Shown piece by piece: positions 22,611 through 61,557 of a stretch of 64,000 bases of DNA. A model generated the notes under the pieces. The model saw only the letters and a list, made by a program, of their open reading frames with translations, ran no database searches and was not told the DNA's origin. The stretch is from Lonicera japonica (Eukaryota; Streptophyta; Magnoliopsida; Dipsacales; Caprifoliaceae). The position numbers were made by a program, and so were the translations under genes. The stretch spans positions 1 to 64,000 of the forward strand of contig JAKCWG010000326.1 in NCBI GenBank assembly GCA_021464415.1, in the 5' to 3' direction. Numbering within the stretch: position 1 is the stretch's first letter; each line of letters starts with the position of its first letter.

Positions 22611-22892
22611 TATTTATACTGCTCGGGGAAGATTGTCGCGCGACATTTCCCCCAAAAAGGCAAGCGTGGCACGACATATCTGTTTGTCGCGCGACATTCC
22701 TGTATGTCGTGCGATAAACGGCTGAAGTGATGGGTCCTGACACTGTGATGTATCAGAAAGTGGTTGGTCGGGTGCAGAGAGGGATTGTCGCGCGACATAG
22801 TGGGATTGTCGCGCGACATACCAGGGATTGTCGCGCGACAATGTGATATGTCGTGCGACAATCCTTCATAAAAATAGGTTTGTCGCGCAACA
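22611..22892 (-). promoter_or_regulatory. LTR 1 core promoter: TATA box and palindrome cluster
   Basis: TATAAATA on the minus strand at 22611-22618. Upstream (minus sense) are nine copies of a 12-bp palindrome. Exact TGTCGCGCGACA copies start at 22634, 22685, 22786, 22807 and 22829; degenerate copies start at 22665, 22705, 22849 and 22881. Most degenerate sites show C-to-T or G-to-A change at a CpG. The nearest copy is about 15 bp from the TATA box. Confidence 0.8.
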
Positions 22893-23107
22893 AACCCCCC
22901 TGGGGTAGTTTCGGGTGCTTGGGTGGGTCCCGGACTCCAAAAACAGTAGTTTTCGTAGGTCGTTAGGGTTGTTGCGGGGGTCACGGATCGGGGTGTCTAC
23001 AGACCCTCTCGACTCAAGCTCCTTGCTTTGCAAGGAATTGAGGCGACTGAAAGAGACCATGATCCATGGCTCCCGCATGAACTCTAAAGAAGTGTTTATG
23101 CAAAAAG

Positions 23108-23660
23108 TGCTTGTGAGTGCCTCCGGGGAGGGCTTCGTGTTTGGTTTTGCCTCCGGAGAGGGCTTTTGTTACCTCATTGCCTCTCTCAAGGGCTTTGACT
23201 TGCTCCACTTGCCTCAGATGGGAGGACTACCATTGATCTTTTTTGCGCCTCAGGTGGGAGGACTACTATTGCGCCTCAGATGGGAGGACTACCGTTGTGC
23301 TTCTCTGGGAGGGCTTCGCCTCAGGTGGGAGGACTACCGTTGTGCCTCTCTGGGAGGGCTTCGCCTCAGGTGGGAGGACTACCGTTTGTGCCTCTCTGGG
23401 AGGGCTTCGCCTCAGGTGGGAGGACTACCGTTTGTGCCTCTCTGGGAGGGCTTCGTCTCAGGTGGGAGGACTACCGTTTATGCCTCTCTGGGAGGGCTTC
23501 GCCTCAGGTGGGAAGACTACCGTTTGTGCCTTTCTGAGAGGGCTTCTAGATCTGTAAGAAGAAGGAAAAATGCCTCTGGGAGGACTTTCATGAGTAACTT
23601 TTGCCTCTGGAGAGGGCTTGTGATTCTGCCTCTGAAGAGGGCTTATGTTTGTGATTTTGT
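23108..23660. repeat. 45/46-bp minisatellite in the 3' region of element A
   Basis: About seven units of 45-46 bp (GCCTCAGGTGGGAGGACTACC ... CTCTCTGGGAGGGCTT) lie at 23216-23540, with shorter related units on each side. The unit length is near a multiple of three, so long open frames run through it, but these are repeat artefacts. Tandem repeats next to the 3' LTR are common in Tat elements and can seed satellites. Confidence 0.85.
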
Positions 23661-24489
23661 AAAATTTAATTTGTGTCTCTTTAGACTGCTAGAGTGAGAG
23701 AGAGAAGTTTTCGTGAGGGTGAAAAGAGCTCCTCGAGGTCCAATCTTATCCGAATGTCCGCTTTCCTGTATCTTTCTTGAATTTTGTTCTCATGTTTTCC
23801 TCGAGTGATGATACTTTCTCAGAAGGCAGTCTTCGATTTTCTTTGCTTTCCGCAGCGTGATGATTCGAGGATTTCCCAAACCATCTCTTCTGTATCGTGC
23901 TGAAAAGAAAATTTGTCTGAAAGTCCAATCTCTGATCTCTGTTCTTTTCTCAGTTTCTCTTTTTGGTGGGCCCAACATCGTTTTCTGTTTTTTGATGCCC
24001 TTATTTCTCCCTCTTTTGGGAAAGACTTTTCCTGGCCCTCTTTGTTTTTGACCAGGAGTCTTTTCATCCCTTTGTCATGATCAAGAGCCTTACTCACCCT
24101 AAAACGAAGCCCTAAGCCGTTTTTGGCCTAGCTATCACTTTTGGTGTGGCTCTCCCTGTCACTCTACATTTCTGTTTCCCTCGCTTGCTTTGGGCGCTCA
24201 TGCGGGTTTCTCCTCTTTTCTACTTTTTCAATTTTTTCTATTCCCGTCTTATCTCGCTATTTTGCCTTTTCTTATTTGATGGTCTCGGTCCTTCTGTGAG
24301 ATCAGAGACTACTTTTAATCGTGACATTCTGTTCTCGCATTTTTTGGAGAGATGATTTAGAAGTTTGCTCGTCGAATTCTTTACCATGGGTGTGCGGTTT
24401 TAGCAATTTTTTCGAAAACTGCTCCTCGGAAGTCCTCCTGCAGGAGATAAAATGAGGAAAAAGGTCAAAAATCAGGGGAGGGGGTGGTT

Positions 24490-24572
24490 TGTCGCGCGAC
24501 ACTTCGGTGAATGGCTCTTTGTCGCGCGACAATGTGGCCATTTGTCGCGCGACAAACTGACCTACTATATAA
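24490..24572 (+). promoter_or_regulatory. promoter of antisense PMD gene: three palindromes and TATA box
   Basis: Exact TGTCGCGCGACA copies start at 24490, 24520 and 24543, and TATATAA is at 24566-24572, 11 bp after the last palindrome. The PMD start codon is at 24711, about 140 bp downstream. The layout copies the LTR promoter but on the opposite strand. In element B this region is missing because element A lies there. Confidence 0.75.
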
Positions 24573-24710: not shown

Positions 24711-27700
24711 ATGGACCCTGCTCATCCCGACAGACTGGAGGGTGACCAGGAGGAGGTCACCTTTACTGACGCTCAGGGCGTTCTCCGCTGCAGCCTTCAT
24801 CATGACGACTGGGCGGACTTGGATTGGTACAATGAGGATGGGATAGACCGCGGTCGGGCGGTGGTCTATTGAGATGCTATCCGAGCTGCTCCAGTCCCGG
24901 ATGTCCCGTGGCTCTTGATGGAGCCTGTCTCTCACGAGATTCGCCGTCGATCTCTGGTATGTCTTCTTTTTATGTATTTATCTGTTCTGTTTCTTGTCGT
25001 TTCCTGTATTTCATTTTCAATAATGTTAGTATGCATGTCTGCCTTGGAATAACGCCCGATTTAGCGAACACATACTTTTACCTGTGATACCTCTTAGTTT
25101 TTAGGAAAAATACATAATCTACCCCTATAACCCTATAACTCTCATAATTACACCAAAATACCCTCAGGTTTTGGAAAATTACATATTTTACCCCTATAGC
25201 CCTATAACTCTCGTAATTACACCAAAGTACCCTCAGGTTTTAGGAAAATTACATAATTTACCCTTATAACCCCATACCTCTCATAATTACACCAAAGTAT
25301 CCTCAGGTTTTGGAAAAATTACATAATTTACCCCTATAGCCCTATAACTCTCATAACTACACCAAAGTACCCTCAGGTTTTGGAAAATTACATAATTTTA
25401 CCCTTATAGCCCTATAGCTCTCATAATTACACCAAAGTACCCTCAGGTTTTGGAAAATTACATAATTTACCCTTATAGCCCTATAGCTCTCATAATTACA
25501 CCAAAGTACCCTCAAGTTTGGAAAATTACATAATTTACCCTTATAGCCCTATAACTCTCATAATTACACCAAAGTACCCTCAGGTTTTGGAAAATTACAT
25601 AATTTACCCTTAGAGCCCTATAACTCTCATAATTACACCAAAGTACCCTCAGATTTGGAAAATTACATAATTTACCCTTATAGCCCTATAACTCTCATAA
25701 TTACACCAAAGTACCCTCAAGTTTTGGAAAATTACATAATCTACCCCTACAGCCCTATATCTCTCATAGTTACACCAAAGTACCCTTAGGTTTGGAAAAT
25801 TACATAATTTACCCTTATAGCCTTATAACTCTCATAATTACACCAAAGTACCCTCAGGTTTTGGAAAATTACATAATCTACCCCTACAGCCCTATATCTC
25901 TCATAATTACACCAAAGTACCCTCAGGTTTTGGAAAATTACATATTTTACCCTTTATAACCCTATACTCGTTCTCTTGTCTGTAGTGGGTTGGCCGGGGT
26001 TGGGGTTCTCCCAACACTATATCTTCGGAGTGGCGACGGGCACCGGCCCCTGTCCAGGAGTTGATTCTTGCGACTCCTTTTGGCTCCCTCTTCGACGCCC
26101 TCCCAGAGCGGGTTTCTAGGGCGGCAGTTTTGGTGTCGGCACTAGCTTGCCATTGGTGGGATACTACTCATACCTTCCATTGGAGCTGGGGTGAGATGAC
26201 GATGACACCCCTCGATCTTTTTGCTCTGACCGGGATTCCTTCAGGGAGTCCCCATTCAGATCGATGTCCCTTTGCGTCTGACGGCAGAGGGTATTGTTAG
26301 TGCGTTTGGATGGTTCCCGGAGCGACGGAGTTCCGGTGATACGATTCCTCGGGGTATATTGGTTACGCGGCTAGCCACAGAGAGAGCTCGGCTAGTTGCT
26401 TCAGGGGTTCCTATGACCCGTCAGGAGGCGCGCCAGTATGCCCGCGTCCTTCTTCTACTGACACTCCATGATTTATTCGAGGCTCGTGGTGGGGACACAG
26501 CTCATCTTTGGTGGTTACAATCTTCGAAACTTCAGCCTCATGTTTGACTATGACTGGGGAGGCTTCATTCTTGCAGTCCTCTATGATGCCATGGACCAGG
26601 TCTCTCGCCATTTAGCCCTGAACCTCAAGGGCTTTTCTCTGCTGTGGGAGGTACATACTTTAGTCTTTTTGTCTTTGCTTCAGTTCTTTACATATTACAT
26701 GTTGATCATTGCTGATTTCTTTTATCTTTCCTTTTCAGAGCTGGTTTGTTGCTTATACCCGCCTGGGTCGCGCCCAGGTGGATCTCCTCGTTGAGAACGA
26801 GGACCAGTTCCCTTTTCTCCGCCGATTCATTGCGGGGAACTACAGGGCTCCCTATGTATATCGGACTCGGGAGACCGAAGCTGCTGCTGTCCACGATCTA
26901 CGGGAGGAGCAGGTAAAATATTTTTAGTTTTCTTGCTCTTCAATAGTTAGATAGAATATATAAATTACTGAGAATAAAAAACTTGTTCTCTTTTCAGGTC
27001 GAGTGGGCCCCTTGGGGTGATCTGGGTTCCCATTATGGGTATGGCCGTGCTCTGACCGCCTTGAGGACCAGGCGGCTTATCCGGGATGAGTACGGCCTTC
27101 TCTTCTACTTGGGAGAGAGGGTCATTCGTCAGCACACGCCGTCCCAGTGGCCTCGTGTTCCATTATTCCCTCCTGTTCTGATGAGGTGGACGGGCGAGAT
27201 CGATCCGGTGACGGTGCAGGCCTTGGTCGATAGACTCGGCTTCCAGACGTTCGTCGAGGAGGGAGACTACGCTGTTTTTGCTGCCCGTTACCTGATGAGG
27301 GAGCCGAAGGGGACTCGGGGACGGGTCTTCTATGAGAGGTACCGGGCATTGGGAGGTGATCCCCATTACATACGGGGACAGACCTATTTAGCTAGGGCGA
27401 TTCCGGGTCACTTGCCACCTGTCCCCGATCAGAAGGACAACATTCCGAATTCTGAGGACGAGGATCCTGAGGGAGAGAGGGATGTTCCTGCTGCGGCCGA
27501 GGGCGGTGGTCGGCCAGAGGGCGAGGGAGGTGATGCGACAGTGGTTCCGGAGCCGTCACCTCAGGCGACACCTGTGAGGGAGCAGCGTGCTGAGGGTTTC
27601 AAGTTTCCCACCGGTCCTTCTGTGTCTCCGGGGGTCCTTTTTACCGTTGCTGAGGCTGCTGAGGGGAGAACGGGATTGTCTGAGAGGTCCTGGGAGCCTG

Positions 27701-28561
27701 CGGACCTTGGGGCAGATTACGAGCAGTTCGGGCGGACTCCCTCAGCTGCGGTGGCTACTCCTTCTAGTGGGGTACCTCCTTTGAGGGCGACGGCCATAGT
27801 GGATCCTCCGGGGGTCCGTACCTACGCCACGTTGACTCCTCTCCCGGCGACTGTCATGGGTCCTCCTGCCCGATCTCCAGGTTTCGGGGGTTCTTCATCC
27901 CGGCCTCCCTTGTTCCCGATCCGTGAGGAGGGCGGATCCACTTCTGCTGGTGTTCCGACGCGGTCGTCTATTCCGTGGGTAGATCTACCCCCACTCCCCA
28001 GGGACATCTCTTACGTTGGCGCTGGATTACGTCGATATCCCGTCCCGGAGTACCGTCTTCCTGAGGATACTTTTGACTATCTGGGTGGTCGCCCTGATGA
28101 CGAGGTACTTTCTTCAACTTCTCTTGGTACCTTTACATCTATATCTATCTATTTTGACTGTGTTGATTCTTTTATCTTATGTCTTTTTACAGCGGGTGAG
28201 TGTTCGGGTGGCAGATCTACGGGCTTGGCACGCCCAGTACCTCTACAGCTGGAACCTGCTCCAGTATGTCGGTCGAGACCCTCCAGCCTACATGCGTGAT
28301 TATCAGAGGGCTATCGACATCTCTTTACGGCCGGACGACCCCCTGACTTCCTCTCATGCCCGGACGGATTCTCGGAGGAGCAGTAGTCGGACTTCCAGGC
28401 GTTCCCGATCGTCGTTGATCTGTCCTACGGCACCGGTCCAGTCTACGGGGCCTTCTTAGGCGGCAGTTCCTCCTGTTCCTGGCGTCCCAGTTGTTGATCT
28501 TACTCCCGAGGAGGGCTCGGGCGATAGTGGGAGCGTGTCAAAACGTGCCCGAGTAGATTAG
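24711..28561 (+). pseudogene. plant mobile domain (PMD) protein, antisense gene of element A
   Basis: Five exons fit: 24711-24956, 25986-26650, 26739-26912, 26998-28104 and 28193-28561, with GT-AG introns in phase 0 that are conserved in element B. Exon 2 carries the typical PMD core (WWDTTHTFHWSWGEMTMTPL, then LFALTGIP). Exon 4 ends the domain and adds a low-complexity acidic and proline-rich tail. Exon 5 ends in a basic KRARVD, possibly a nuclear signal. PMD proteins (MAIN/MAIL1 in Arabidopsis) are nuclear, act in silencing and gene expression, and are widespread in transposons. Lesions: TGA at 24870 (element B has CGA), a frame change near 26245, a 2-bp loss near 26510, and TAG at 28457 (element B has CAG). 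Antisense extra ORFs are known in Tat elements; their function is not. Confidence 0.8.
25090..25975. repeat. 69-bp minisatellite inside PMD intron 1
   Basis: About 13 tandem units of 69-70 bp (TACCCTCAGGTTTTGGAAAA ... CTCATAATTACACCAAAG). It fills nearly all of the 1029-bp intron 24957-25985. Element B has the same array with about 11 units, so it predates the split of A and B. Confidence 0.9.
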
Positions 28562-28885: not shown

Positions 28886-28963
28886 TGTCGCGCGACAATC
28901 CCTCATGGATATGGGTTTGTCACGCGACAAACAGGTACATGTCCCTCTTTTTTGCTATAAATA
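28886..28963 (+). promoter_or_regulatory. promoter of antisense DUF7745-like gene (element A)
   Basis: An exact palindrome TGTCGCGCGACA is at 28886-28897, a one-base variant TGTCACGCGACA at 28918-28929, and CTATAAATA at 28955-28963, about 40 bp before the ATG at 29003. Same order and spacing style as the LTR and PMD promoters. Confidence 0.7.
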
Positions 28964-29002: not shown

Positions 29003-30259
29003 ATGTCTTTTTATCGCACAAAATCTGATTTTTCTTATGTCAATGTTCGAGATGCTTTGATATCTTCCGAAAATGGTCTGAACTTTGGTGCCTTTAGTCC
29101 TTTAGCGGGCTGGTGCCATCGTCCCGTCGATTTTTCCTTTCTGTTAGGTGCCTTGTATTTCTGGAGTCCTGCGGACCATCTTTTCCGTTTTGGACTAGAT
29201 GAGCTCTGCTCGACCTATGAGGAGTTCTCCTGGCTGTTACGTTCTGACGTTCGTCTCCCGATGGCAGTTCCCATAGAAGAAATCGGTCCCCGCGACATGC
29301 TAATTACTCTGTTAGCCATTCCCCAGGCGGCCTGTGATGGTTTCATTGCCGACGGACTTCTTGACCTCCATAAAATGGTGAGGTTCTTTCATCGTTATGA
29401 AGATAGGGCCTCTTACGGCGTGGGGCGTACTGCAGCGGCCCTGATTTGTCTGGTTTCTGATATGCTGCTGGTGACGGGTTCTTCCCGTGTTGATCCGACT
29501 ATCCTGAGTCTGATTTACCAGGCTAGAAATGGGGAGTCGATAGTGCCGATCATTCTTGCAGAGACCCTGAATGGTCTTGATGATGTTCAACGGGGGGCCT
29601 CGCCTTTCTTCCGGGGGAGTCCGCGTCTGCTATACATGTGGCTGCTAGAGCGCTTTCGATCGGTGGGTTTCAACGGAGTTCGGCTCGACAATCCGACTCA
29701 TTTTTTCCATCTGCCTCTCTTTGGTGCTTTGACCATGTCTTCCTCTGATTGGACGGTGTGGTTTTCGGAGAACTTTCGGGCTATCCGGTGGAACATTCCT
29801 TGGTGGAAGCTGAGGGCGATGGTACTTAGCACTGGGGGTCAGAACTACGTTCGGCTCCGCGGGCTCTGGTTTACTTCCTTTTATCTCCCTGGGCGTCTTC
29901 TTCGGCAGTTTAACATTCCTCAGGAGGTTCCCCTTGGTCTGAACAACTTCTCTTCTGAGTCTAAATTTGTGACCCCGCATGTTTCTTTATCGGTAGAGAG
30001 GATGTGGCGTGCTCGACTGACTCGTCAGTTCAACTATGCCCGTTTTGGTATTACCCGGCCCCTCCGGGCTGATATCATCCGCTCTTGCTGGCAATCTCTG
30101 GAAGGAGAACTGATCGACGACCCCTTTTAAATGGAGTGGATCCGATTCATGGATACGGAGGCTACTGATGATAATATTGTCTTTGCATATCAGATCTTGG
30201 ACGAAGCTCGGATCGACTTGGCTATTGAGGACCCAGTGTGGCCAACCCCTAGGGATTAG
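29003..30259 (+). pseudogene. DUF7745-like transposon protein, antisense gene of element A
   Basis: An open frame of 375 codons runs from ATG 29003 to TAA 30128. It then continues in the same frame for 42 more codons to TAG 30257, so TAA is probably a nonsense change and the full protein would be about 418 residues. Family-like features are FWSPADHLFRFGLDELCSTYEEF (about residues 53-75), a hydrophobic helical middle, and PIILAETLNGL near residue 190. From memory these match the DUF7745 family, which is abundant in plant retrotransposon-derived predictions; a profile search was not run. It is a single exon, convergent with integrase, which ends at 30483. Role unknown; I infer it is not structural, because it has its own promoter. 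Confidence 0.7.
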
Positions 30260-30482: not shown

Positions 30483-33400
30483 CTATTGATAATACTTCTT
30501 CAGTCGATCCATGTTGACTAGTGAATGTAGTAACTGCCCATCCAAATCAGTGAGTATAGCGGCACCTCCTGTATCGATTTCTTTGACGATGTACGGCCCT
30601 GTCCACTTCTGCCCGAACTTACCCCTCGGATCTCTAGCTGGTTGTTGAATTTCTTTCAATACAATATCGTTCTCATTGATACCCCGAGTCCTCACTTTCT
30701 GGTTAAATGCTTGAGCGATTCTCTTCTGATACCCCTGATGGTGGTATGCGGCTTTCAATCTCTTTTCATCTAGTAGGGCTAGCTCGTTATAACGTGCCTG
30801 AACCCACTACAGTTCATTGACTTGATTTTCTAGTATTACCCTGAGGGAGGGGACTTCTAACTCAATAGGGAGGACTGCTTCCACCCCGTATGTAAGAGAG
30901 AACGGGGTTGCCCCGGTGGAGACCCTCTCGGTGGTGCGATATCCCCACAATGCATAAGGTAATTTCTCTGGCCAGTCTCGACAGGTGTCGGTCATCTTGC
31001 TTAGGATATTCTTCAGATTTTTGTTGGCGGCTTCAACTGCCCCATTGGTTTGTGGCCTGTATGGCGAAGACCTGTGTCTGGTAATACCGTATCCATGATG
31101 GTATTAGCTTCTCCTTCGAAGTGGGTGCCGTTATCTGAGATGATCTCGTGTGGGACCCCATATCGGCAAACAATATTCCTTTTGATGAATCGGGCTACTT
31201 TTTTGGCATCCAGGGTCTGGTAAGACTCGACTTCTACCCATTTGGTGAAGTAGTCGATGGCCACTAGTATGAATTTATGGCCGTTACTAGCTTTGGGCGA
31301 GATCTTCCCAATGACGTCGATTCCCCAAGTTGCGAAAAGCCAGGGAGCAGTCATGGTGTACAACTCTTTTGGAGGAAGCTTCTGGGATTTAGTATAAATT
31401 TGGCACTTGTGACAACGGCGTACGTGATTAGCGCAGTCGGTTTGCAGAGTAGACCAGAAATAACCTTGTCTGATGATTTTGCGGGCAAGTGTATGTCCGC
31501 TCATATGAGGTCCGCAATCGCCCCCATGTATCTGATCCATTACTCTGACTGATTCTTCTTCGGTGAGGCATTGAAGATGAGTCCCGTCGTAGTTTCTTTT
31601 ATACAATCTTCCGGCACAAAGTATGAACCCTGATGCTAATCTTCTGAGCGTGACCCGTGTTTTCTTGTCTGTTTTCTCAGGATACTGATGGTTCTTCAGC
31701 AAGTTCCAGATATCGTAAAACCAAGTGGTTGAATCCCCTTCCCCTTCATTCTCTACCACCAAGGCCGTGCAGTGTGCTGGTTCTGATTTCTTTTGCACCG
31801 TAAGAGTTATTTCTTCCATTTCTTCCGGGATATCGATCATAGATGCCAGGTTTGCCAGTGCGTCAGCAAAACTGTTCTGAGACCTGGGGAGATAGTAAAA
31901 CTCCGTATGCTTGAATTTTTTCGCGATATCCTCCAGTCGGGCGAGATAAGGGACTAATTTCTCATCTCTGATCTTCCATTCTTTCAGAACCTGGTGAACC
32001 ACTAGTGCTGAATCTCCGTATACCTGTATCTTCTTTATGCCCCTTTGAAGAGCTATATCTAACCCGAGTATGCAGGCTTCATATTCAGCCATGTTGTTGG
32101 TGCAGAAGAAGTCCAGCCGATATGATACCGGAGAGTGAGTTTGGTCTGGAGAGACTAACAGGATACCTATCCCGTTTCCATTCGGATTGGCGGCCCCGTC
32201 AAAGTACAACTTCCAGTCTTCATCGATCTCGACATTCATGATGGTTTCGTCTGGGAACTCAGCTTTTTCTAGCACGTCTCCCAATATTGGATTGTGGGCC
32301 AGGTAATCAGCTATGATCTTGCCTTTGACTGCCTTCTGGGTCATATAGGTGATGTCAAATTCGGAGAGTAGAAATAGCCATTTTGCCATTCGGTTCGAGA
32401 GAGCCGGTTTCTCGAAGAGGTATTTCAACGGATCAATCTGTGATGCCAGGATGACTGAGAAAACTAGCATGTAGTGCCGTAGTTTCTGTGTTACCCAGAT
32501 GAGAGCGGTGCATGATTTATCCAATGGTGTGTAGTTCATTTCAAACAGGGACAGTTTCTTGCTGAGGAAATAGATGGCCTGCTCTTTCCGGGTATCAGTC
32601 AGGTGTTGGGCTAGCATTGCTCCCGCGGCTGAATCAGTGACGGTTAGGTATAAAATTAAAGGTAGTCCGGTTTGTGGTGGGGCTAATACTGGGGGATTGG
32701 AGAGATATTCTTTGATTCTATCAAAAGCTTCCTGGCACTGACCGTCCCACTCTCCCGGTGAAGATTTTCTCAGGAGTTTGAAGATGGGCTCGCAAGTTTG
32801 AGTGAGCTGAGAGATGAACCTACTGATGTACTGCAGATTACCCAAAAATCTCCGGACTTCTTTCTCAGTACGAGGTTTAGGCATTTCTTGGATAGCTTGA
32901 ACCTTGGCAGGGTCTACCTCGATTCCTCTCTTACTGACAACATAACCTAGGAGTTTTCCCTTGGTCACCCCGAACACACATTTCTGCGGATTGAGTCTCA
33001 TCTGGTACTGGCGGAGCCAGTCGAAGAAGGTTCGCAGGGCTGGTATGTGACCTTCCCTCTCCTTTGATTTGATTATCATGTCGTCCACATACACCTCTAC
33101 TTCTTTGTGGATCATATCGTGGAAAATAGCGGTGGCTGCTCTCTGATAGGTTGCCCCGGAGTTCTTCAGCCCAAATGGCATAACGGTGTAGCAGTATGTT
33201 CCCCATGGTGTGATGAATGCCGTTTTCTCCTGGTGATCCGGGTGCATTTTGATCTGGTTATACTCGGCAAAACCATTTACAAATGACTTTAGGGCATGGT
33301 TGGCAGTGTTATCGATTATCAAATCGATGTTGGACAATGGGAAATCGTCTTTCGGACAAGCCTTGTTAAGATCCCGGTAATCCACACATATGCGGACCTT

Positions 33401-34627
33401 CTCATTTGCCTTTGGAACGGGCACAATGTTGGCTAACCATGAAGGGTAATCGATCACCCGCAAAAACCCTACACTCAGTTGTTTCATCACTTCTTCCTTT
33501 ACTTTCAGGGACCATTCTGGCGTAAGTTTCCTTAACTTTTGCTTGACAGGTCTGAACTTCGGCTTGGTATGTATCTCGTGCGTGACTATCTGACTGTTCA
33601 ATCCTGGCATATCAGCATAAGACCAGGCGAAGACATCCACGTACTCTTTCAGAGTTTGTGTGAATTCCTCTTTTTCTGCTTCACTCAGACTTGTCCCAAT
33701 GCGGACCTCCTTTCTTTCCTCTTCTGTCCCGAGGTTGATTTCGAGAGTGTCTCCTTCCTCGCTCTGTATACGCTGTTCCTCCCGTTCAGGGTGTTCGTTC
33801 AGTCTTTCTAACTCCTTATAAGCTATTACAGAATTACAAATAACAGGATAACGCAAAACAGAGTTTTCTTCATTGATAATAGTATTTACAGGTACAAGTT
33901 TAAAAAGTAAATCTAGGAGTGGCTCTTTCCTAGCCTTACTCTCACTCTCACCTCTCACCCTTACAATTTCACTCTTTTTCCCTTTTCTTTGGTAGTCTGG
34001 ATCAGCGTATATCAGGTGTACGGGGTCATCCCTTGGCTCGTCATCCCCTAGAGCCATGATGTCGAAGAGATCTCCGATCATTTCTTCTTCCTCATCTGTC
34101 TTGTCTTCATTTTCTTCTTTCAACCCGATTGTTAATTTGGTGGAGAAACTGTGTTCGATGCTTTCTTTGACATATAGGTCCTCTTCATAGAAGATTTCCC
34201 ATCCTGGTAGGTTCTCTCCGTCGCTGTTTCTCCAAGGTTCCTGAAAACTGCAAAAGGGGAAGTCCTCTCCTTCTTTGACGAAAAACCCGTTCAAGGAGCT
34301 GAAACTCGGATACTGATGCCCTCGGCCCCTTTTTTGCTGATCGTCTTCTTTAGTGTGTTGGTACCCCAAACCTTCCCTTTCGTACCTCGTTACTGGTTCC
34401 AAGGCTTGAAGTAGTCCTGATTGTCCCATCCCTAGGCCGGCTCCAGGTAAGTATTTCATCATTCTTAGCATATTTGTAATCTTGGTGTTGAGACCGGGGA
34501 TATTGTCAGGGGGAAGATATTCGATTATCTGAGTGCTGAGAGTTTGTACTTGAGGCTCATAAGAAAAGCCTCCTAACTGTACGCTCTGGCTCCCGATTCC
34601 CAAAACAGGTAACTCCACATCCGCCAA
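30483..34627 (-). pseudogene. pol: pol of element A: G-patch, RT, RNase H, archaeal RNase H, integrase
   Basis: The main frame (1204 codons, 34627-31013) has a G-patch-like region (about 50-95), RT (about 360-560) with YVDD at 513-516, and a gypsy RNase H (about 655-760). A second, archaeal-type RNase H follows (about 803-930; D810, E848, D872, D922), then an integrase zinc finger (H1041, H1045, C1072, C1075) and the first two integrase acids (D1104, D1165). The two RNase H domains place it in the Tat lineage. Lesions: RT motif A has Asn at 451 where Asp is expected (element B keeps Asp); a short deletion near 31090 shifts frame inside integrase; TAG at 30807-30809 is a further stop. Integrase continues in other frames to its natural end at 30483. 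Not functional as it stands. Confidence 0.9.
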
Positions 34628-34642
34628 GGTCCTTTCAGGATC

Positions 34643-35455
34643 TCATTGGATGGTAATTATGTTCCCTTCAAACGGTATCTTGATCTTTTGGTACAAGGAG
34701 GAGGGGAGTGCTCCTATGTCGTGTAGCCACGCTCTTCCCAGCAGGAGGTTAAAACTGGAGGGAATGTCTATGATTTGGAAATCGGCCGAAAAACTTCCGG
34801 GACCGACCATGAGATCTAGCTTCAGAGAACCCAGAATGGCCCTTCTGGTATTGTCGTAGGCGCTGACAGTCACGGCGGATGGAGAAAGCTCTGAATCCAA
34901 GATACTCAGGCATCTAGCGGTCTTCAAGGGGCAGACGTTTATGGTTGACCCATTGTCGATAAGGACTTGTGGTAGGATTTTTCCTCGGGTTCGGACGGTG
35001 ATATGGAGAGCCAGGCTGTGTTTCCTCCCCAATGGAGACAGATCCTCATCTGAAAATGACAGACTTCTTTGGACTGTAAGTGACCCGATCATGTTTGGCA
35101 GTTGTTCGGGTGTGGAGTCCGGTGATATCACGGCCTCGTCCAGAAGTTTGATGAAAGCGGTCATGTGGGGTTTGGAGGCAACCAAAAGGCCCCAAATGGT
35201 GATGTGTGCCTGGGTCTTCTTCAATTGCTCAAGCACTCTATCTTCTCCTATTTCCTTAGGTGGCGGTGTTTTCTCAGCATCCGTCGGTGGTGGTTGGTAT
35301 ACCCTTCCTGAACGGGTGATCTGTTGGATCCAAAGGGATGCCGGGTCTGATTCCTCTGAAGTTTCTGACGATTCCGACTCTGTCGACCAACTGAAAGTCC
35401 CGGGGGAGGTTTCTGCCATACAGATTGTCTCCCTGGGGGGGTTTGGGATTTCCAT
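34643..35455 (-). CDS. aspartic protease region of element A pol
   Basis: A 270-codon frame starting at Met 35455. It has a retropepsin-like fold segment with the catalytic motif LIDNGST (Asp about 167) and the later SFNLLLGRAWLH, both typical of Tat proteases. It ends at TGA 34643-34645, where element B reads straight through, so the stop is probably a nonsense mutation separating protease from RT. The start overlaps the gag frame by about 207 bp in another frame. An in-frame TAA sits nine codons upstream of Met 35455 in both elements, so Met 35455 is the likely start, or a frameshift is used. Confidence 0.75.
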   Translation of the reverse strand: MEIPNPPRETICMAETSPGTFSWSTESESSETSEESDPASLWIQQITRSGRVYQPPPTDAEKTPPPKEIGEDRVLEQLKKTQAHITIWGLLVASKPHMTAFIKLLDEAVISPDSTPEQLPNMIGSLTVQRSLSFSDEDLSPLGRKHSLALHITVRTRGKILPQVLIDNGSTINVCPLKTARCLSILDSELSPSAVTVSAYDNTRRAILGSLKLDLMVGPGSFSADFQIIDIPSSFNLLLGRAWLHDIGALPSSLYQKIKIPFEGNIITIQ

Positions 35456-37374
35456 GACTGTTTCTTCTTATTCTGGGTCCATCCTATCCCAGATTTTCCG
35501 GGATTGGTTTTGATTGTAAGTGGCTGTGAGATCCCCTGATTTGCCTTTCCTAAACCCTGCCCGGGTAGGAAGTTCATTTTGGCCATCCATTGGTCAATTA
35601 TGGGATTGGGGCCTGGGGCAACTTGAGCCTTTGCTGGCAGTACATCGGGTGCCCTATAAGCTGGGTCATCTCGAATGAGCCCCACGGGATCGAAGCCTTC
35701 TTCATCAGTGGTTAAGGCATTAATTCCTGCAGGTGGAGCATGGTTAGGAAGTGGATTGTTGGTAACATTGGGCCCGCCGGGTGCGGGGATGGTTCCGGCT
35801 TCAATGAGGTCTTGAATACGATGGCGAAGGGCTAAACAACGCTCCGTGTCATGGCCTGCAACTTGATGATACGCACAATTCTCATTCATTCTCCAGGTAT
35901 TTGGAATAGGATTTAGTGGGGGGCGCGGGTTGAGTGGAGTGATTAGTCCGGCCTTTCGGAGCAGTTCCAGACTTTTTACCAGTGTAGTGGGGAGGGTGCA
36001 GAAGTTTCTCCTTTTCTTGTCCTCGGTGTTCGAAGGGCCTCCTTGTGCGGGCCAACTCATCGGAGGTGGCTGTTGTGGTTGTTGAAAGGGGTTCTGTTGA
36101 TAGGGGTATGAGCTTATTTGATTCACGGCTGTAGTGGCTGTCTTTCTCCCGGTGTATGCGGCTTTCTTGGTATCGGTTTCAACTTTCTTGGCCAATTCTT
36201 CCTCTACTTGTGACCCCATACTCAACAGGGCCCTGAAGTGTGGGAATACATGCTTTCCCATGCAACTCAGTACGGCTGGAGTGAAGTTCTTCTGAATGAT
36301 TTTCAGCTGTTCTTCTTCATCGGGTCGTTTGGACATTTGGGAGGCCATCTCCCTCCAGCGGGTGACAAAGTCGCTGAAGCTTTCTTTCTCGCCCTGTTTG
36401 GCCATTTCCAGGTGTTTACAGGTAATTTCCAAATCCTCGTTGGACCCGTATTTGGTCATAAATTCCTTGACGATATCTCCCCAAGTCTGCGTGTGATGCC
36501 TTTCTAGACCAAAAAACCATCTCAGGGCGGCCCCCGTGAGAGTCATGTGAAAGGCCTGTGCTAATTCCGGCTCTCCACAACCGGACACTTGCATGGATCT
36601 GATGTAGGACTGTAGGTGGGTTTTAGGGGGCGTGGTTCCAGTGAACTTGGTGATGGAAGGGAGTTTGAATCCCTGGGGTAATCTTGCTTCTGGGTAGAGG
36701 GAGAAGGCATTCATATCTGTGATCTCGTCTGCTCCTTTTATTAGGGACACCCCCTTTTGCAGGACCCTCATTTGCTCTTTCAGCTTCTTCATTTCTTCAC
36801 TCTCTCTTGACACCTCGTCGGGCTGTTCCCGTGCTATTACCGATTCTGCATATACTGCCCGAAGTCGGTTGATGTCTGGGTATTCATTAGGGAGGGCTGC
36901 TGGGGCCGGTGGTGGAAGGGGTCTTGCGGGAACTTGTGGCCATGGTTGGTAGTGGGGGTCAAAGCCGGGTTGTACTTGGGGTTGCGGCCAGACTATGGGT
37001 GGCTCTTGCTGTTGGTAAGTGGGGCCTGAATCCGGGGCCCATTGGTTCTGATTGTTGGGGTCGGTTTGAACGGGACCAGCTACGATCGGGCCTGTTTGAG
37101 GTGGATTGGTTCCTTGAACTGGGGGAAGTACTTGTGAAGACTGTCCTTGGTTCGGATCTCGATTCGGTGGTAGTCGATCAAACCCCGGTGGTGCAGTTCG
37201 TTCGGTTGATAATTCTTTTATTCGGATCCAGGTACCCTGTTGCTCGTTCGTGAGGTTTGCCAGATCCCTGCTGACGGTCATGAGTAAACGGTGCATTTCG
37301 GCTAGGGTTGGCTGAGCTGATGATGCCTCGGCTAGGCTCTGATCTGTCTCTCGATTCTCGCGTTCATCGGCCAT
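35248..37374 (-). CDS. gag: gag of element A
   Basis: An intact 708-codon frame from ATG 37374. It has an N-terminal helical segment (about 10-60), a Pro/Gln-rich linker (60-165), and a retrotransposon Gag core (about 250-370; ALRWFFGLERHHTQTWGD, SFSDFVTRWREMASQM). A zinc-knuckle-like CAYHQVAGHDTERC is at 500-513 and a G-patch-like stretch (NFLPGQGLGK ... SGIGW) at 600-632. The capsid forms the virus-like particle in the cytoplasm. In element B the frame ends with TGA just after the G-patch, so the last 75 or so codons here may be read-through past a lost stop. Confidence 0.85.
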   Translation of the reverse strand: MADERENRETDQSLAEASSAQPTLAEMHRLLMTVSRDLANLTNEQQGTWIRIKELSTERTAPPGFDRLPPNRDPNQGQSSQVLPPVQGTNPPQTGPIVAGPVQTDPNNQNQWAPDSGPTYQQQEPPIVWPQPQVQPGFDPHYQPWPQVPARPLPPPAPAALPNEYPDINRLRAVYAESVIAREQPDEVSRESEEMKKLKEQMRVLQKGVSLIKGADEITDMNAFSLYPEARLPQGFKLPSITKFTGTTPPKTHLQSYIRSMQVSGCGEPELAQAFHMTLTGAALRWFFGLERHHTQTWGDIVKEFMTKYGSNEDLEITCKHLEMAKQGEKESFSDFVTRWREMASQMSKRPDEEEQLKIIQKNFTPAVLSCMGKHVFPHFRALLSMGSQVEEELAKKVETDTKKAAYTGRKTATTAVNQISSYPYQQNPFQQPQQPPPMSWPAQGGPSNTEDKKRRNFCTLPTTLVKSLELLRKAGLITPLNPRPPLNPIPNTWRMNENCAYHQVAGHDTERCLALRHRIQDLIEAGTIPAPGGPNVTNNPLPNHAPPAGINALTTDEEGFDPVGLIRDDPAYRAPDVLPAKAQVAPGPNPIIDQWMAKMNFLPGQGLGKANQGISQPLTIKTNPGKSGIGWTQNKKKQSWKSQTPPGRQSVWQKPPPGLSVGRQSRNRQKLQRNQTRHPFGSNRSPVQEGYTNHHRRMLRKHRHLRK

Positions 37375-38104
37375 TTCAGGTGTGCTTGGTCTTACTAGTC
37401 TTCCGGTGTGATCACGGCTGGCCCAACCTTCCAGTCTGTTGTTGCTTCACGACTGTAGACGAAACCACACGGCGAAGATGAAGGAAGACTGTGATGCGAC
37501 TCGATTTTTGCCAAAAGAACCACTAAAAATTGCCGAGAAGAGCCTCGGAATTTAAAAAAGGTGTCGAAAAGTAAGCCGTAAAGTGGTACATCCCCTACGG
37601 CTGTTTGACAAGTGTTTTAACTTGACTCGATCTTATATGCAGCGCAGGTGTACGAACGGTTAAAGCTTCAGGCTCCCTCCTATTTGGCAAGACCTTGCGA
37701 TATACCCCAGGGGCGGGTACGTGCAAGAATCTTTTGATATACTTCCCGGGTACGTGAGTGTTCTCGTCACTCGATATACCTCGGGGGCGTACTTGGCCAA
37801 GGAGAGTGGAAGTAAATGCTTTCGGTTTATGTTGGCCCAAGCAAGCCAACTCCCTACTCACTTATAATACTTCCGAGGGTTTGGGGTAAATTCACACTCG
37901 TAGAACCAATGCATGATTTGTGATAGTGCGTGCGAAAAAGGTTGGGTTTACAAATATCATTATCTTGATTACGTATTTTTGAAAATTTCCCTTTTTCAAA
38001 GAAAATATTTTTTCTCAATCAATTAACATAAGTAGGGAAAGCAGAAAAAGCAAGTATTCAACAGATAAACAAAAGTCCACATATAAGAGTCTAGTTCTCT
38101 AGTG
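37375..38104 (-). other. 5' leader of element A
   Basis: Non-coding leader between PBS and gag. It is homologous to 59258-59996 in element B and is expected to hold packaging signals. Short frames here are not conserved. Confidence 0.6.
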
Positions 38105-38123: not shown

Positions 38124-39685
38124 TGTGAGAATTCGCAAATGCGACTCCCGGGTCTCGTCCCCGTTCGTTGGGCGTCTGAAGCGTCGGAAGGGATTCCGTC
38201 GCTCCATTTGCTTGGAGTTGTTTGATGATTCATATCGGGTGTCCTTACGTCTATTCTAGATGCAAAAAGGGGTTCGTTCAGAGTCGCCAATACGTTTTAC
38301 GAGAAAACGGACAAAAAGGGTTGTGTAAGGGGAAAGGCTACAGATAAGCCTTTCTTTACACATTTGTCTGCAAAACCAGGATTCTATAGGGTTCGGGAAC
38401 TATATTACGGTTTGGGAAGGTGTTAAGCACCCATTCCGCCCTTTCGGTCTCTAGTGGTCTTTATATGTTTATTCTATGTTGAAAAACTTGGATGCTTTTA
38501 CTGACAGTCTACTACTTTTCAAATGAAAACCCTAATTTCTGGGGGAAGACGGGAAAGGGATGAAAACCTTTGTGTTCCCAGATTCGATCTTTTATTTATT
38601 GAAAGATGTAAATACAAATGACAAAACCTTTTATTTTGAAAGAGTATCCCGTATTATTTCCTCAGATAATGACGGTTTTCTCGGGTTGTGATTACTTTTG
38701 TAAAAGTTCGGATCTATGTCGGGACTGATTTAATATGGAACTAGAACTCTTTGGGGAGAGTTATCAATCACGTCGCAGTTTATAGAGAAGACATGATATG
38801 TTTGATTCTAATTCCTAGATAAGTCGTATCAGTCTGGGTTTTGAAAACAGAATTTTATCCGGACGATAACATACTTACTCTTCTGGTTTTGTAAATGGTT
38901 TTATCAGGGTCCTTTGTTTTGAAGACGGTAGACTATTTATAACTTGGCAATAAGTTTATTCAAATAAAACGTGGACAAAACAACAGGAATAAAACAAGTA
39001 CACAGATAGACCTGTTTAATTACTAGAAGAAACTTTATTTACCTTCCCGACGAGAATAATAATAAGAAAGAGAATATAATACGACAGAGAGATCTCCGGC
39101 GATAACAATCTTCTCCTTCTTCAGATATTTCCGAGAATTCGATTCCAGAGACGGGACACGTCGAGTGTCGGGAATAGATTCGATAATTCTTCAGAGATTA
39201 GATGATAATATAAAAATGCTTGAATAAAATTAGACTAAAGCCCCAGATTTTCCAGATTCAAGTTGCTGCCCTTGAACCCTTGGGGGTGTTGGCCTATTTA
39301 TACTGCTCGGGGAAGATTGTCGCGCGATATTTCCCCAAAAAAGGCAAGTGTCGCGCGACACATCTGTTTGTCGCGCGACATTCCTGTATGTCGTGTGACA
39401 AACGGCTGAAGTGATGGGTCCTGACACTGTGATGTGTGAGAAAGTGGTTGGTCGGGTGCAGAGAGGGATTGTCGCGCGACATAGTGGGATTGTCGCGCGA
39501 CATTCCAATGATTGTCGCGCGACAATGTGATATGTCGTGCGACAATCCTTCATAAAAAAAGGTTTGTCGCGCAACAAACCCCCCTGGGATAGTTTCGGGT
39601 GCTCGGGTGGGGCCCGGACTCCAAAAACAGTAGTTCTTGCAGGTCATTAGAGTTCTTGCGGGGGTCACGGATCGGGGTGTCTACA
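38124..39685 (-). repeat. LTR 2 (5' LTR of element A)
   Basis: 1562 bp with the same termini as LTR 1. The PBS is on its left. Its right edge joins the PMD exon 1 of element B in the middle of a codon series (CAG CCA GAT AGA CTG GAG), which shows that element A integrated into that exon. Confidence 0.92.
39295..39576 (-). promoter_or_regulatory. LTR 2 core promoter: TATA box and palindrome cluster
   Basis: TATAAATA (minus) at 39295-39302. Exact TGTCGCGCGACA copies start at 39349, 39369, 39470, 39491 and 39513; degenerate copies start at 39318, 39389, 39533 and 39565. This promoter would drive element A gag-pol. The palindromes also lie 110-370 bp upstream of the promoterless PMD remnant of element B. 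Confidence 0.8.
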
Positions 39686-41726: not shown

Positions 41727-41728
41727 GT

Positions 41729-48942: not shown

Positions 48943-49489
48943 TGACGCGGACAAGGCTACATGGGCTCAAATCAACTTGAGGAGGCCCATTAGAATAAAT
49001 TAGAAGCTTTATTTTTAAGTAGTTTTAATTATAAGAATTATTTCCTTATTTAATTAGGAATGTTTTCATTATTTAATTAGGAATATTTTCCTTAGTCAAT
49101 TAGGATTTAGATTAGTAGTTTCCTTATTGTGTTTAGATTAGTATTTTCCTTATTCTATTTGGATTAGTATTTTCTACACCCTATTTAAAGGGGGGTTCAT
49201 TGTTTTATTTTATGATCTAAGACTTTATTCATAATAATATTGAGTGATTTTAATCCTCTTTGGTTCTTCACGAACTACTTGAACTTATCGGTTTGTCCGT
49301 GGCGTTCATCCGACTTATCAATCGGTATTCCGCACCCGATTGTGGCGTCTTCGTTTCAACCAGAATCTGATTGTAGAAACGGTCCGAGTTCTTAATTTGC
49401 TACGGTTTTCGTGTGTATCTGTGTCAAGGTTCGCACAACCAATTCGTTGTGTTTGCGGGTTTCGTGCGATATCACCGTAGGTCGTATCA
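48943..49489 (+). repeat. 5' LTR of NA2
   Basis: TGACGCGGACAAGG...GTAGGTCGTATCA. Shares about 300 bp (from GATCTAAGACTTTATTC on) with NA1 LTRs. Confidence 0.92.
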
Positions 49490-49828
49490 GTTGGTATCAG
49501 AGGGTAGCTTCTACATTCAGGTTTTTCTATCTTTTTATTTCTTGTTCTTGTTAAAGAGTCAATTTGGTTCCAAAAAAAAAAAAAGTTCCAATTTTTAATT
49601 TTTTTCAAAAAAAAAATAAAAAAATTCCCGCTGGTTGTCGAAAATTGTGTTTTTTCGCTATCGAAACAGCCTCGGATCGCCCTGATTTTCCGCGCAATTA
49701 TTTTAATTTTTTGTTCCGAACAACATATTCGAAAATCAGCCTGGTCCAACGGTGCAATCAAAAGTTAGAGCAGTTTTACGATAACACCTGCAAAAAAAAA
49801 AAAAAAGTGTGATTTGCAATTTAAAGTT

Positions 49829-50704: not shown

Positions 50705-51190
50705 AAGCTTTATTTTTAAGTAGTTTTAATTATAAGAATTATTTCCTTATTTAATTAGGAATGTTTTCATTATTTAATTAGGAATATTTTCCTTAGTCAA
50801 TTAGGATTTAGATTAGTAGTTTCCTTATTGTGTTTAGATTAGTATTTTCCTTATTCTATTTGGATTAGTATTTTCTACACCCTATTTAAAGGGGGGTTCA
50901 TTGTTTTATTTTATGATCTAAGACTTTATTCATAATAATATTGAGTGATTTTAATCCTCTTTGGTTCTTCACGAACTACTTGAACTTATCGGTTTGTCCG
51001 TGGCGTTCATCCGACTTATCAATCGGTATTCCGCACCCGATTGTGGCGTCTTCGTTTCAACCAGAATCTGATTGTAGAAACGGTCCGAGTTCTTAATTTG
51101 CTACGATTTTCATGTGTATCTGTGTCGAGGTTTGCACAACCAATTCGTTGTGTTTGCGGGTTTCGTGCGATATCACGGTAGGTCGTATCA
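50644..51190 (+). repeat. 3' LTR of NA2
   Basis: 547 bp, nearly identical to 48943-49489; the few differences are mostly C/T or G/A. Confidence 0.92.
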
Positions 51191-58300: not shown

Positions 58301-59257
58301 GTTTGCGGGTAATTTCCAAATCTTCGTTGGACCCGTATTTATTCATGAACTCCTTGACAATATCTCCCAAAGTCTTTGTGTGGTGTTTCTCTAGATCAAA
58401 AAACCATCTAAGGGCGGCTCCCGTGAGCATCATGTGAAAGGCCTGAGCTAATTTCGGCTCTCCACAACCGGACACTTGCATGGATCTGATGTAGGATTGA
58501 AGATGGGTTTTATGGGGGTGGTTCCTGTGAATTTGGTGATGGAAGGGAGCTTGAATCACTGGGGCAATCTTGCTTCTGGGTAGAGGGAGAAAGCATTCAT
58601 ATCTGTAATCTCATTTGCTCCTTTTATTAGAGAAATCTCCCATTTGCAGAACCTTCATCTGCTCTTTCAGCTTCTTCATTTCTTCTCTCCCTCTTGACAC
58701 CTCGTCAGACTATTCTCGAGCTATAACCGATTCTGCATACACTGCCCGAAGTCAGTTGATGTTTGGGTACTCATTAGGAGGGGCTACTGGGGCCGGGTGT
58801 GGAATAGGCCTTGCGGGAACTTGTGGCCATGGTTGGTACTGAGGCTCAAAACCTTGTTGGGGTTGGGGCCAGACGATGGGTGGCTCTTGTTGTTGATAAG
58901 TGGGGCCTAAATCCGGGGCCTACTGATTCTGATTGTTGGGATTAATCTGAACAGGACTGGCTATGATGGGGCCCGTTTGGGGTGGATTGGTTCCTCGGAC
59001 TGGGGAAAGTACTTGTGATGACTGCCCTTGATTCTGATCTCGATTTGGTGGTAGCCGTTCAAACCCCGGTGGTGCAGTTCATTCGGCTAACAACTCTTTT
59101 ACTCAGATTCGGGTACTCTATTGCTCGGTTGTGAGGCTTGCTAGATTCTTGCTGACGGTCATAAGTAGACGATGCATCTCAGATAAGGTTGGCTGTACTG
59201 CTGATGCCTCGGCTAGGCTCTGATCCATTTCTTGATTCTCGCGCGTCCGTCGGTCAT
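52366..59257 (-). pseudogene. gag-pol: gag-pol of element B, degenerate
   Basis: A full-length homologue of element A gag-pol, broken by many stops and indels. Recognisable parts are gag (about 57370-59257), protease (56661-57170, motif LINNGST instead of LIDNGST), G-patch (about 56350), RT (54718-55351), archaeal RNase H (53863-54504) and integrase (52366-53727). RT motif A keeps Asp (FVDGFAGYNQ) but the YVDD box reads YVND. The gag start region has a two-base gain that shifts frame. Three key catalytic Asp positions or frames are therefore lost, and the element is dead. It shows protease reading into RT without the stop found in element A. Confidence 0.88.
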
Positions 59258-60014
59258 CACGAATGTGCTTGGTCTCACTAATCTCCCGGTATGATCTCGA
59301 CCGGCCCAACCTTCCAGACTGTCGTTGTTTACGGTTGTAGACAAAACCATGTGGCGAATATGAAGAAAGATTATGATGCGACTCGATTTTTGTCAAAAGA
59401 ACCCCTAAAAATTGCTGAGAAATGACTCGGGTTTTAAAAAGGTGTTGTAAAGTAAGCCGTAAGGTGGTATATCCCCTACGGCTGTTTAACAAGTGTTTTA
59501 GCTGACTCAACCTTACATGCAGCGTAGGTGTACGAACGGTTAAGGCTTCAGGCTTCAGGCTCCCTCCTTTTTGGCAAGACCTTGCGATATACTCCAAGGG
59601 CGGGTACGTGCAAAAATCTTTTGATATACTTTCCGGGTACATGAGTGTTCTCGTCACTCGATATACCTCAGGGGCGTACTTGGCCAAGGAGAGTGGAAGT
59701 AAATACTTTCGGTTTATGTTGGCCCAAGCAAGCCAACTCCCTACTCACTTATAATACTTCCGGGGGTTTGGGATAAATTCACACTCGTAAAACCAATGCA
59801 TGATTTGTGAAAGTGTGTGCAAAGTTTGAAAGGTTGGGTTTACAAAATATCATTATCTTTATTACGTATTTTTGAAAACTTCTATTTTTTAGAAAAAAGT
59901 TTCTTCTCAATCAATTAACATAAGTAGGGAAAGCAGTAAAAGACAATATTCAACAAATAAACAAAAGTCCACATATAAGAGTCTAGTTTTCTATCATCCC
60001 CAGCAGAGTCGCCA
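59258..60014 (-). other. 5' leader and primer-binding site of element B
   Basis: Homologous to 37375-38122. The PBS TGGCGACTCTGCTGGGGA (minus) is at 59997-60014, next to LTR 3. Confidence 0.7.
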
Positions 60015-60015
60015 C

Positions 60016-61557
60016 TGTGAGAATCCGTAAATGCGGCCCTCGGATCTCATTCCCGTCCTTGGGCGTCTGAAATGTCGGAAAAGGATTCCGTCGTTCCATT
60101 TGCTTCTATCGGTTTGATAGTTCATATCGGGTGTCCCTCTATCCTATTTCTAGATGCAAGGGGGTTCGTTCAGAGTCGCCAGTACGTTTTACGAGAAAAC
60201 GGACAAAACAGTTGTGTAAGAGAAAATGCTATAGATAAGCTTTTCTTTACACGTTTGTCTACGAAACCAGGATTCTATAGGTTTCGAAAATTATATTACG
60301 GATTGGGAAAGTGTTAAGCACCCTTTCCGCCCTTTCGGTCTCTAGTGGTCTTATATGTTTATTTTATGTTGAAAAACTTGGATGCTTTTACTGACAGTCT
60401 ACTACTTTCCAAATAAAAACCCTAATTTTCGGAAAAAATGGGAAAAGGTATGAAAAACCTTTGTGTTTCGAGACCCAATATTTTGTTTTGAAAAGATGTA
60501 AATACAAGTGACAAAAGTTGTTTTATTTCATAGAGAGTTTCCCGTTTTATTTCTCAGATAATGACGGTTTTTTCTCGGGTTTTGACTTCTTTTGGAAAAG
60601 TTTGAATCTTGTATCGGGACTAATTTAATATGAAATTAGAACTCTTGAGGGGAGTTCTACTAAATATATCACAGTCTATGGAAGAGATATGATATACCGG
60701 GTTTTTAATTCCTAAGTAAGTTTTACCGGTTCGAGTTTTGAAAATAGAATTTTGTCCGAACGATAATACACTTACTCTTCTGGTTTTGCAAATGGTTTTA
60801 TTAGGGCCCTTTGTTTTGAAAATAATAGACTATTTATAACTTGGCAATAAGTTTATTCAAATAAAATGTGGACAGAACAACGGAAGTAAAACAAGTACAC
60901 AGATATCTAATTTTAAATACTAGAAGGAACTTTCTTTACCTTCCCAACGAGAATAATAATAAGAAAGAAAATATAATGCGGCAGAGAGATCTCCGGCGAT
61001 AATAATCTTTTCCTTCTTTAGATATTTTCGAGAATTCGATTCCAGAAGCGGGCCGGGATACGCCGAGTGTCGAGAATAGATTCGATAATTCTTCAGAAAT
61101 AAGATGATAATGAAAAATGCTTGACGAAAGACTAGAAAATCAAATATAAGCCAATAATTTTTCAATCCTAAGTTGCTGTCCTTGAACCCTTGGGGGGTGT
61201 TGGCCTATTTATAGTGGTGGAGAGTGATTGTCGCGCGACACTTCCCCAAAAAGGACATGTGTCGCGCGACAATGTGTACCATGTCGCGCGACAAACGGCT
61301 GAAGTTATGTTTCTGACAGACTGATGTGTCAGAGAGTGGATGGTCTGGTGTCAGGGGGGATTGTCGCGCGACACAATGAAGTATGTCTCGCGACATACTC
61401 TTTTGTCGTGCGACATTTCACTTTAAAAATAGGTTTGTTTGGCCAACAAATCCTTTCGGGGCAGTTTCGGGTGCTCGAGTGGGTCCCGGACTCCAAAAAC
61501 AGTATTTCTCGAAGGTCGTTAGGGTTCTTGCGGGGATTACAGATCGGGGTGTCTACA
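60016..61557 (-). repeat. LTR 3 (5' LTR of element B)
   Basis: 1542 bp with the same termini, but clearly more diverged from LTR 1 and LTR 2 than they are from each other. The outer flank is ACAAC, which does not match ACCAT left of LTR 1. Confidence 0.9.
61206..61415 (-). promoter_or_regulatory. LTR 3 core promoter: TATA box and palindrome cluster
   Basis: TATAAATA (minus) at 61206-61213. Exact palindromes TGTCGCGCGACA start at 61229, 61260, 61282 and 61362; variants start at 61384 (TGTCTCGCGACA) and 61404 (TGTCGTGCGACA). Copy number and spacing differ from LTR 1 and 2, but the core sequence is kept. Confidence 0.78.

Follow-up and report, generated by a model that had tools for sequence, protein, structure and literature searches.

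Why should a single short palindrome stand upstream of promoters that read a retrotransposon in both directions? The question is raised by a stretch of 64,000 nucleotides from the honeysuckle Lonicera japonica (assembly GCA_021464415.1, contig JAKCWG010000326.1, positions 1 to 64,000; hereafter the window). Self-BLAST of the window reveals a tandem array of elements with common long terminal repeats (LTRs), in the order LTR3-element 2-LTR2-element 1-LTR1-remnant. The gag-pol of element 1 runs on the minus strand and matches the Pfam-type domains RVT_1, RT_RNaseH, RVT_3 and integrase, and two further genes, here called A and B, run antisense to it. Because gag-pol carries a predicted reverse transcriptase, two RNase H domains and an integrase, and dual RNase H is a mark of Tat elements (PMC9289625), the element fits a Ty3/gypsy LTR retrotransposon of Tat type. 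By analogy with the VANC proteins of Arabidopsis we propose, at a probability of roughly 0.58, that element-encoded, family-specific regulators bind the palindromes and co-regulate the sense and antisense units.

One palindrome upstream of sense and antisense promoters

The 12-bp palindrome TGTCGCGCGACA occurs in the window in 19 exact copies, the number given in the original prediction, against a shuffle expectation of 0. At up to two mismatches there are 30 sites (shuffle mean 0.55, largest 3), grouped in six clusters: the three LTRs, the promoter of gene A in element 1 and the promoter of gene B in each element (Table 1). As had been claimed, no site at this threshold lies elsewhere in the 64 kb. 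The predicted total of about 31, with nine in LTR1, is reached only when a site at 22665 with three mismatches is added; at two mismatches LTR1 has eight. By their coordinates, all window sites have a TATA box downstream of them at a distance of 11-274 bp, on the minus strand for gag-pol and on the plus strand for the antisense genes, in agreement with the predicted 10-300 bp and strands. The claim that every promoter is marked is good for the three LTRs, gene A and both copies of gene B, but in element 2 the region that would hold the gene A promoter is missing, and LTR2 there abuts a truncated gene A.

The preferred form of the site is wider, GGWT-TGTCGCGCGACA-AWCC, and the central GCGC of the palindrome is nearly invariant among window sites. 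Each site holds three CpGs, and of the 13 substitutions counted across all 30 sites in the per-column table, 9 are CpG transitions, which bears out the statement that most variants are C/T or G/A at a CpG. Among palindromes of at least 10 bp that are not AT-only, this 12-mer is the sole recurrent one in the window, and apart from it the LTR, gene A and gene B promoter types have hardly any 8-10-mers in common there. The spacing between sites tends towards whole helical turns (R 0.82, P ~5e-4 against a uniform 14-35; based on 10 spacings, taken from a single LTR, a single A promoter and a single B promoter). In a larger sample from contig C1, with 63 spacings that are not independent of one another, the short distances are 20-23 and 30-34 bp, plus a single one of 42 bp. 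Spacings of 23, 30-31 and 32 bp come from the A and B promoters.

Distribution across the genome

The assembly searched (886,079,548 bp in 967 contigs) holds 29,561 exact copies of the palindrome and a single copy of its reversed control. In 13 stretches around the first listed sites of contig C1, all 52 exact copies fall within the family, 41 of them in LTRs, 9 in promoters of gene A and 2 in promoters of gene B, and one further listed site, again in a gene B promoter, brings this to 53 of 53. Three LTRs with only 71-72% identity to those of the window nevertheless carry five or six sites each with at most one mismatch.

A genome search with gene B, in which scoring was limited to the best candidates, gave 109 scored matches at 96% identity or above, most of them without inner stops. 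Every one of the 30 copies fetched, one being the window's own, has at least one exact site upstream, and at eight of eight further gene B loci from a second protein search (its four best hits included) two or three sites are present when two mismatches are allowed. The last palindrome ends 26-29 bp before a TATA-like box in all 38 loci. In four gene A promoters the distances from site end to TATA box are 11, 34 and 64-65 bp, and one further TATATAAGCC string at one of these loci has no palindrome upstream. In seven gene B promoters a third palindrome stands at exactly 32 bp, a gain or loss of one unit. These samples answer two questions that the original prediction had posed, and in its favour: as a 12-mer the motif is not common in the genome at large, and other copies of the family do carry it upstream of an antisense gene. 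The interpretation offered with the prediction is thereby supported in part.

Conservation of the palindromes

The palindromes are better conserved than their flanks. When orthologous sites of elements 1 and 2 are paired, as we did from the LTR and B-promoter alignments, four of eight pairs are letter-identical, compared with 20/168 and 30/295 non-palindrome 12-mer windows in the same U3 regions and B promoters. Within U3, identity is 77/85 at palindrome positions and 196/261 at others (p 0.001). Over 15 LTR copies, three of them from the window, palindrome columns have a mean pairwise identity of 0.930 and other U3 columns 0.814, in a comparison whose column definition is partly circular. CpGs are retained in 19/25 cases inside palindromes, in 8/19 outside them in the same U3 regions and B promoters (p 0.02), and in 198/407 across gag-pol (p 0.006). 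The preservation of CpGs at palindromes amounts only to better retention than in adjacent sequence.

The antisense genes

Purifying selection acts on both antisense genes. When element 1 is compared with element 2, the ratio of nonsynonymous to synonymous substitution (dN/dS; Nei-Gojobori on simple alignments, with codons containing gaps or stops excluded) is 0.16 for gene B, while three parts of gene A give 0.09, 0.14 and 0.26. These values are close to those of pol (0.12) and gag (0.19); when B or the C-terminal part of A is read in a shifted frame, the ratio is 0.87-1.52. With dS at ~0.5-0.8, the relationship between the two elements is an old one.

A piece of gene A (25986-26297) matches the plant mobile domain (PMD, PF10536; E 7.4e-9) at 35.7 bits, above the Pfam cut-off of 34.9, and exon 1 of the copy in element 1 has an in-frame stop. 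Gene B, whose commonest open frame among the listed copies is 449 amino acids (aa), is a more distant case. It scores 18.3 bits against PMD and a relative 24.7, both below the cut-off, and the same relative scores 12.3 bits against DUF7745 (PF24924), where the cut-off is 26. At E<=10, seven of 11 gene B family members match DUF7745 (best 1.9e-8) and six match PMD (best 4.9e-6). Among named proteins, the closest come from Lonicera macranthoides, with 95% identity for B and 88% for the C-terminal part of A. An intron of gene A contains a minisatellite in both elements, with 11-13 copies of 68-69-bp units (25100-25966 in element 1, where the unit is 69 bp, and 40076-40836).

A sister family with another palindrome

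A search of the same assembly with DUF7745 brought up a second family, with many copies of a 436-aa frame above the Pfam cut-off (33.6-49.1 bits; 118 scored). In the four promoters of this gene that were fetched there is no match to TGTCGCGCGACA within three mismatches. Each instead holds an array of CCAACCGYRCGGTTGG, mostly 19-20 bp apart, with the last site ending 15 bp before TATAAATAG; in one of them, at L069, the array is down to two sites.

The window itself holds an LTR of this family, in which six CCAACCGYRCGGTTGG sites stand at 1554-1737, upstream of the TATA box, where 0.29 would be expected, and no TGTCGCGCGACA was found between 1260 and 1896. About 6.7 kb upstream of a DUF7745 gene at C1:314012, another stretch (L071) has six CCAACCGYRCGGTTGG-type sites with up to four mismatches; it is 72-75% identical to parts of window 1514-1896, and as fetched it ends short of the TATA box. 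The exact core CCGYRCGGTTGG is present at five of five sister loci and at none of 66 loci of the first family, which contain 254 near-matches to TGTCGCGCGACA (overlapping stretches counted more than once). In other words, the layout is constant while palindrome and protein change together in two families, suggesting that a family-specific DNA-reading protein lets each family control itself.

Comparison with VANC and other known systems

A moderate-confidence predicted structure of a gene B protein (mean predicted local distance difference test score, pLDDT, 52.6; ~60-87 over residues 47-260) matches the DNA-bound crystal structure of VANC21, and gene B appears to have a fold like the VANC21 DNA-binding domain. 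The VANC analogy has gained weight because of this structural match and because a sister family pairs a diverged protein with a different palindrome. VANC proteins, which belong to the VANDAL elements of Arabidopsis, a group of Mutator-like elements (MULEs), are likewise element-encoded and family-specific, and their short motifs are clustered, often in tandem, in the non-coding regions of their own elements. Related VANC proteins use different motifs, YAGTATTAY for VANC21 and AGTTGTCC/AGTTGTAC for VANC6, so that motif and protein change together as they do here (PMC5735166). The honeysuckle system may work like the VANC system, but it resides in an LTR retrotransposon, its site is a CpG-rich perfect palindrome of 12 bp at promoters, and its protein is encoded antisense to gag-pol. 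We do not file it as VANC, because it belongs to a retrotransposon and because the searches did not bring up DUF1985/DUF287, the domains that make up VANC proteins (PMC5735166).

TnpA of Spm/En and MURA of MuDR are also element proteins tied to demethylation or activation of their own element (PMC10398659), although of DNA transposons. Closer in setting are the antisense open reading frames of Retand and other Tat elements (TRP28; gene23 of Grande), which are conserved between pol and the 3' LTR, with predicted DNA binding, and in Grande have a known antisense promoter of their own (PMC11963269, PMC7264820). The Retand proteins have been proposed as regulators (PMC11963269). The domain there is TRP28, whereas here it is PMD/DUF7745, and the available parts of PMC11963269 and PMC7264820 mention no cis-motif common to LTR and antisense gene for Retand or Grande. 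The host proteins MAIN and MAIL1 belong to the same domain family as gene A and are tied to silencing of transposable elements (TEs) and to a promoter motif (PMC8616336, PMC9899485). That motif, DOWN, compared by eye in a single instance (CATGCAGTTT in MORC1), is unlike the palindrome, and direct binding has not been demonstrated for it either (PMC9899485). TE-encoded PMD proteins have been proposed before as counter-silencing factors (PMC8616336). What is new relative to earlier proposals is the cis-element, its co-divergence and the fold link: our literature search met the 12-mer only in one unrelated paper and DUF7745 nowhere, and no structural link between PMD and VANC appears in the available parts of PMC8616336, PMC6419827, PMC5735166, PMC8756742 or PMC9289625.

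The retrotransposon array

The array extends over window 21350-61557, with 5' internal sequence on the left side of LTR1, and its features are collected in Table 1. In element 2, genes A and B are both interrupted by insertions (41136-44097 and 48943-51190), which are related to each other, with ends ~90% alike in parts. Each insertion has direct terminal repeats of ~550-590 bp that are 99% identical and one open reading frame of 311-315 aa without a Pfam match. A 46-bp tandem repeat lies just inside LTR1 (23272-23546); in the sister element L071 a tandem repeat, visible as repeated peptides in translation, occupies a similar place. Outside the array, at 8688-15200, are reading frames of a leucine-rich-repeat receptor kinase, identified by eye and apparently interrupted.

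Table 1. Features of the window that bear on the palindrome and its elements
Feature	Position	Strand	Remarks
Sister-family LTR	1260..1896	minus	right end ~1896; TATA box 1469(-); six CCAACCGYRCGGTTGG (<=3 mismatches)
LTR1	22304..23001	minus	3' LTR of element 1 and 5' LTR of truncated left-hand element; boundaries approximate (self-BLAST, alignment)
Palindromes, U3 of LTR1	22634-22892		8 sites (<=2 mismatches)
Palindromes, gene A (PMD) promoter	24490-24554		three, exact; last 11 bp before TATA 24566
Antisense gene A	24711..28560	plus	multi-exon, plant mobile domain; gene end approximate
Palindromes, gene B promoter of element 1	28886-28929		two, 32 bp apart; last 26 bp before TATA 28956
Antisense gene B	29003..30130	plus	single exon, PMD/DUF7745-like, 375 aa in element 1
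gag-pol of element 1	31013..37446	minus	gag, reverse transcriptase, two RNase H domains, integrase, G-patch
LTR2	38988..39685	minus	5' LTR of element 1, 3' LTR of element 2
Palindromes, U3 of LTR2	39318-39576		nine
Palindromes, gene B promoter of element 2	48702-48745		two, 32 bp apart; TATA-like TACAAATA at 48772
LTR3	60887..61557	minus	5' LTR of element 2
Palindromes, LTR3	61229-61415		6
TATA boxes of LTR1, LTR2, LTR3	22618, 39302, 61213	minus	
TATA boxes of gene A, gene B of element 1, gene B of element 2	24566, 28956, 48772	plus	that at 48772 degenerate (TACAAATA)

A candidate regulatory circuit and its rivals

We hypothesize that the palindrome serves as the operator in a regulatory circuit that the element itself encodes. 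Its reader would be an antisense-encoded protein, most likely that of gene B with gene A as a possible partner, binding the palindrome as a symmetric complex and perhaps cooperatively. Because both antisense promoters have sites, as does the U3 region of the LTR, a single protein could simultaneously feed back on its own genes and control gag-pol, and would do so in copies of its own family only. By analogy with VANC, the likely effect would be activation, removal of silencing, or both, and the three CpGs of each site could let methylation be read by binding. Between activation and repression we favour the former, given the long arrays of sites and the link to VANC. The proposal is based on the positions of the sites, their confinement to the family in the sample, their conservation, selection on both proteins, and the two palindromes of two families.

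Several observations weigh against it. The 53 sites examined are a small and non-random sample of 29,561, drawn from the first 4.6 Mb of one contig, and a few per cent of sites could lie elsewhere. In the B promoters alone, palindromes are not significantly better conserved (22/24 compared with 428/521, p 0.18), and when LTR2 and LTR3 are compared over the whole LTR, CpGs inside palindromes are retained no differently from those outside (14/19 and 17/24). U3 holds tandem units of 20-22 bp, so duplication accounts for part of the spacing, and the sister-family spacings of 13, 19, 20, 26, 34 and 47 are a poor fit to helical phasing. The co-divergence of protein and palindrome concerns two families only; the link between sister LTR and DUF7745 gene comes from one element, the antisense orientation of that gene to gag-pol is inferred, and one near-match to TGTCGCGCGACA (up to two mismatches) does occur in 6,225 bases of sister loci. 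As for the fold, a mean pLDDT of 52.6 gives the gene B model only moderate confidence, Foldseek alone returned no significant match for it, and VANC21 was absent from the matches of a poorer model (pLDDT 37). The gene B family has no sequence match to any PDB chain, and DUF1985/DUF287 was not found in its 11 members at E<=10, a search in which HMMER filters drop most matches above 0.1. Finally, the VANC21 9-mer YAGTATTAY, unlike TGTCGCGCGACA, is not palindromic.

Clusters of host-factor sites in U3 are a known theme among plant retrotransposons, and a dimeric factor of the host may have been hijacked, with the LTR and antisense promoters carrying its sites. Auxin response factors (ARFs) were considered, each palindrome having two TGTC cores: TGTCNN is the ARF core, reporters built on TGTCGC have their own expression domains, and ARF binding is dimeric (PMC10690724). 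Yet TGTC-4-GACA is an inverted repeat of spacing 0 (IR0), whereas the ARF inverted repeats described are IR5-IR9, with IR7/8 best and TGTCGG preferred (PMC10690724). With this spacing and a nearly invariant GCGC centre, the palindrome is unlikely to be an ARF target site. This nearly invariant centre also speaks against a host factor, as does the finding of every sampled site inside the family, and a single host factor would not explain why a sister family in the same genome has another palindrome in a similar layout. We therefore regard a hijacked host factor as unlikely.

A slightly smaller chance attaches to the palindrome being the operator of an autoregulatory repressor, by which an antisense protein limits its own transcription and that of gag-pol as a form of copy-number control. 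The promoter-proximal sites, ending 11-29 bp upstream of TATA, would suit a repressor too, since a bound complex there could block the basal machinery, and the host PMD proteins MAIN and MAIL1 are needed for silencing as well as for gene activation (PMC7156037). The six to nine sites in U3, on the other hand, reach ~274 bp upstream, which is more enhancer-like, and the fold relative VANC21 is an anti-silencing protein. The sites might finally involve no protein at all, having spread by tandem duplication and LTR/internal recombination or serving RNA dimerisation or packaging. The tandem units of U3 would agree with this, as would the probable presence of all sites within the genomic RNA. We consider it very improbable, however, as the three promoter types have almost nothing else in common, the register of sites to TATA is kept, the sites are conserved above their flanks, and a second family repeats the layout with a different sequence.

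Implications for plant retrotransposons

That plant retrotransposons carry antisense genes has been known for years, but no function of these genes has been proven (PMC7264820), and how plant mobile domain proteins act is likewise an open question (PMC8616336). A private palindrome upstream of LTR and antisense genes alike, a possible VANC21 fold link and a sister palindrome reduce the question to direct biochemistry, protein by site. If the proposed circuit is real, LTR retrotransposons, which are very abundant in plants, would join DNA transposons as elements capable of sequence-specific self-activation, and the finding would hint at what a host silencing pathway does biochemically.

A broader and decidedly more tentative reading, which we hold to be somewhat less probable than its opposite, joins these threads: the PMD/DUF7745 proteins that plant Ty3/gypsy elements encode may belong, with the VANC proteins of MULEs, to one superfamily of sequence-specific TE regulators. 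Each retrotransposon family would own a private palindrome that diverges with its antisense-encoded reader; anti-silencing would then be family-specific, and both the sense and the antisense promoters would receive positive feedback. The host proteins MAIN and MAIL1 would be domesticated readers, and the action of PMD proteins on chromatin would find an explanation in this.

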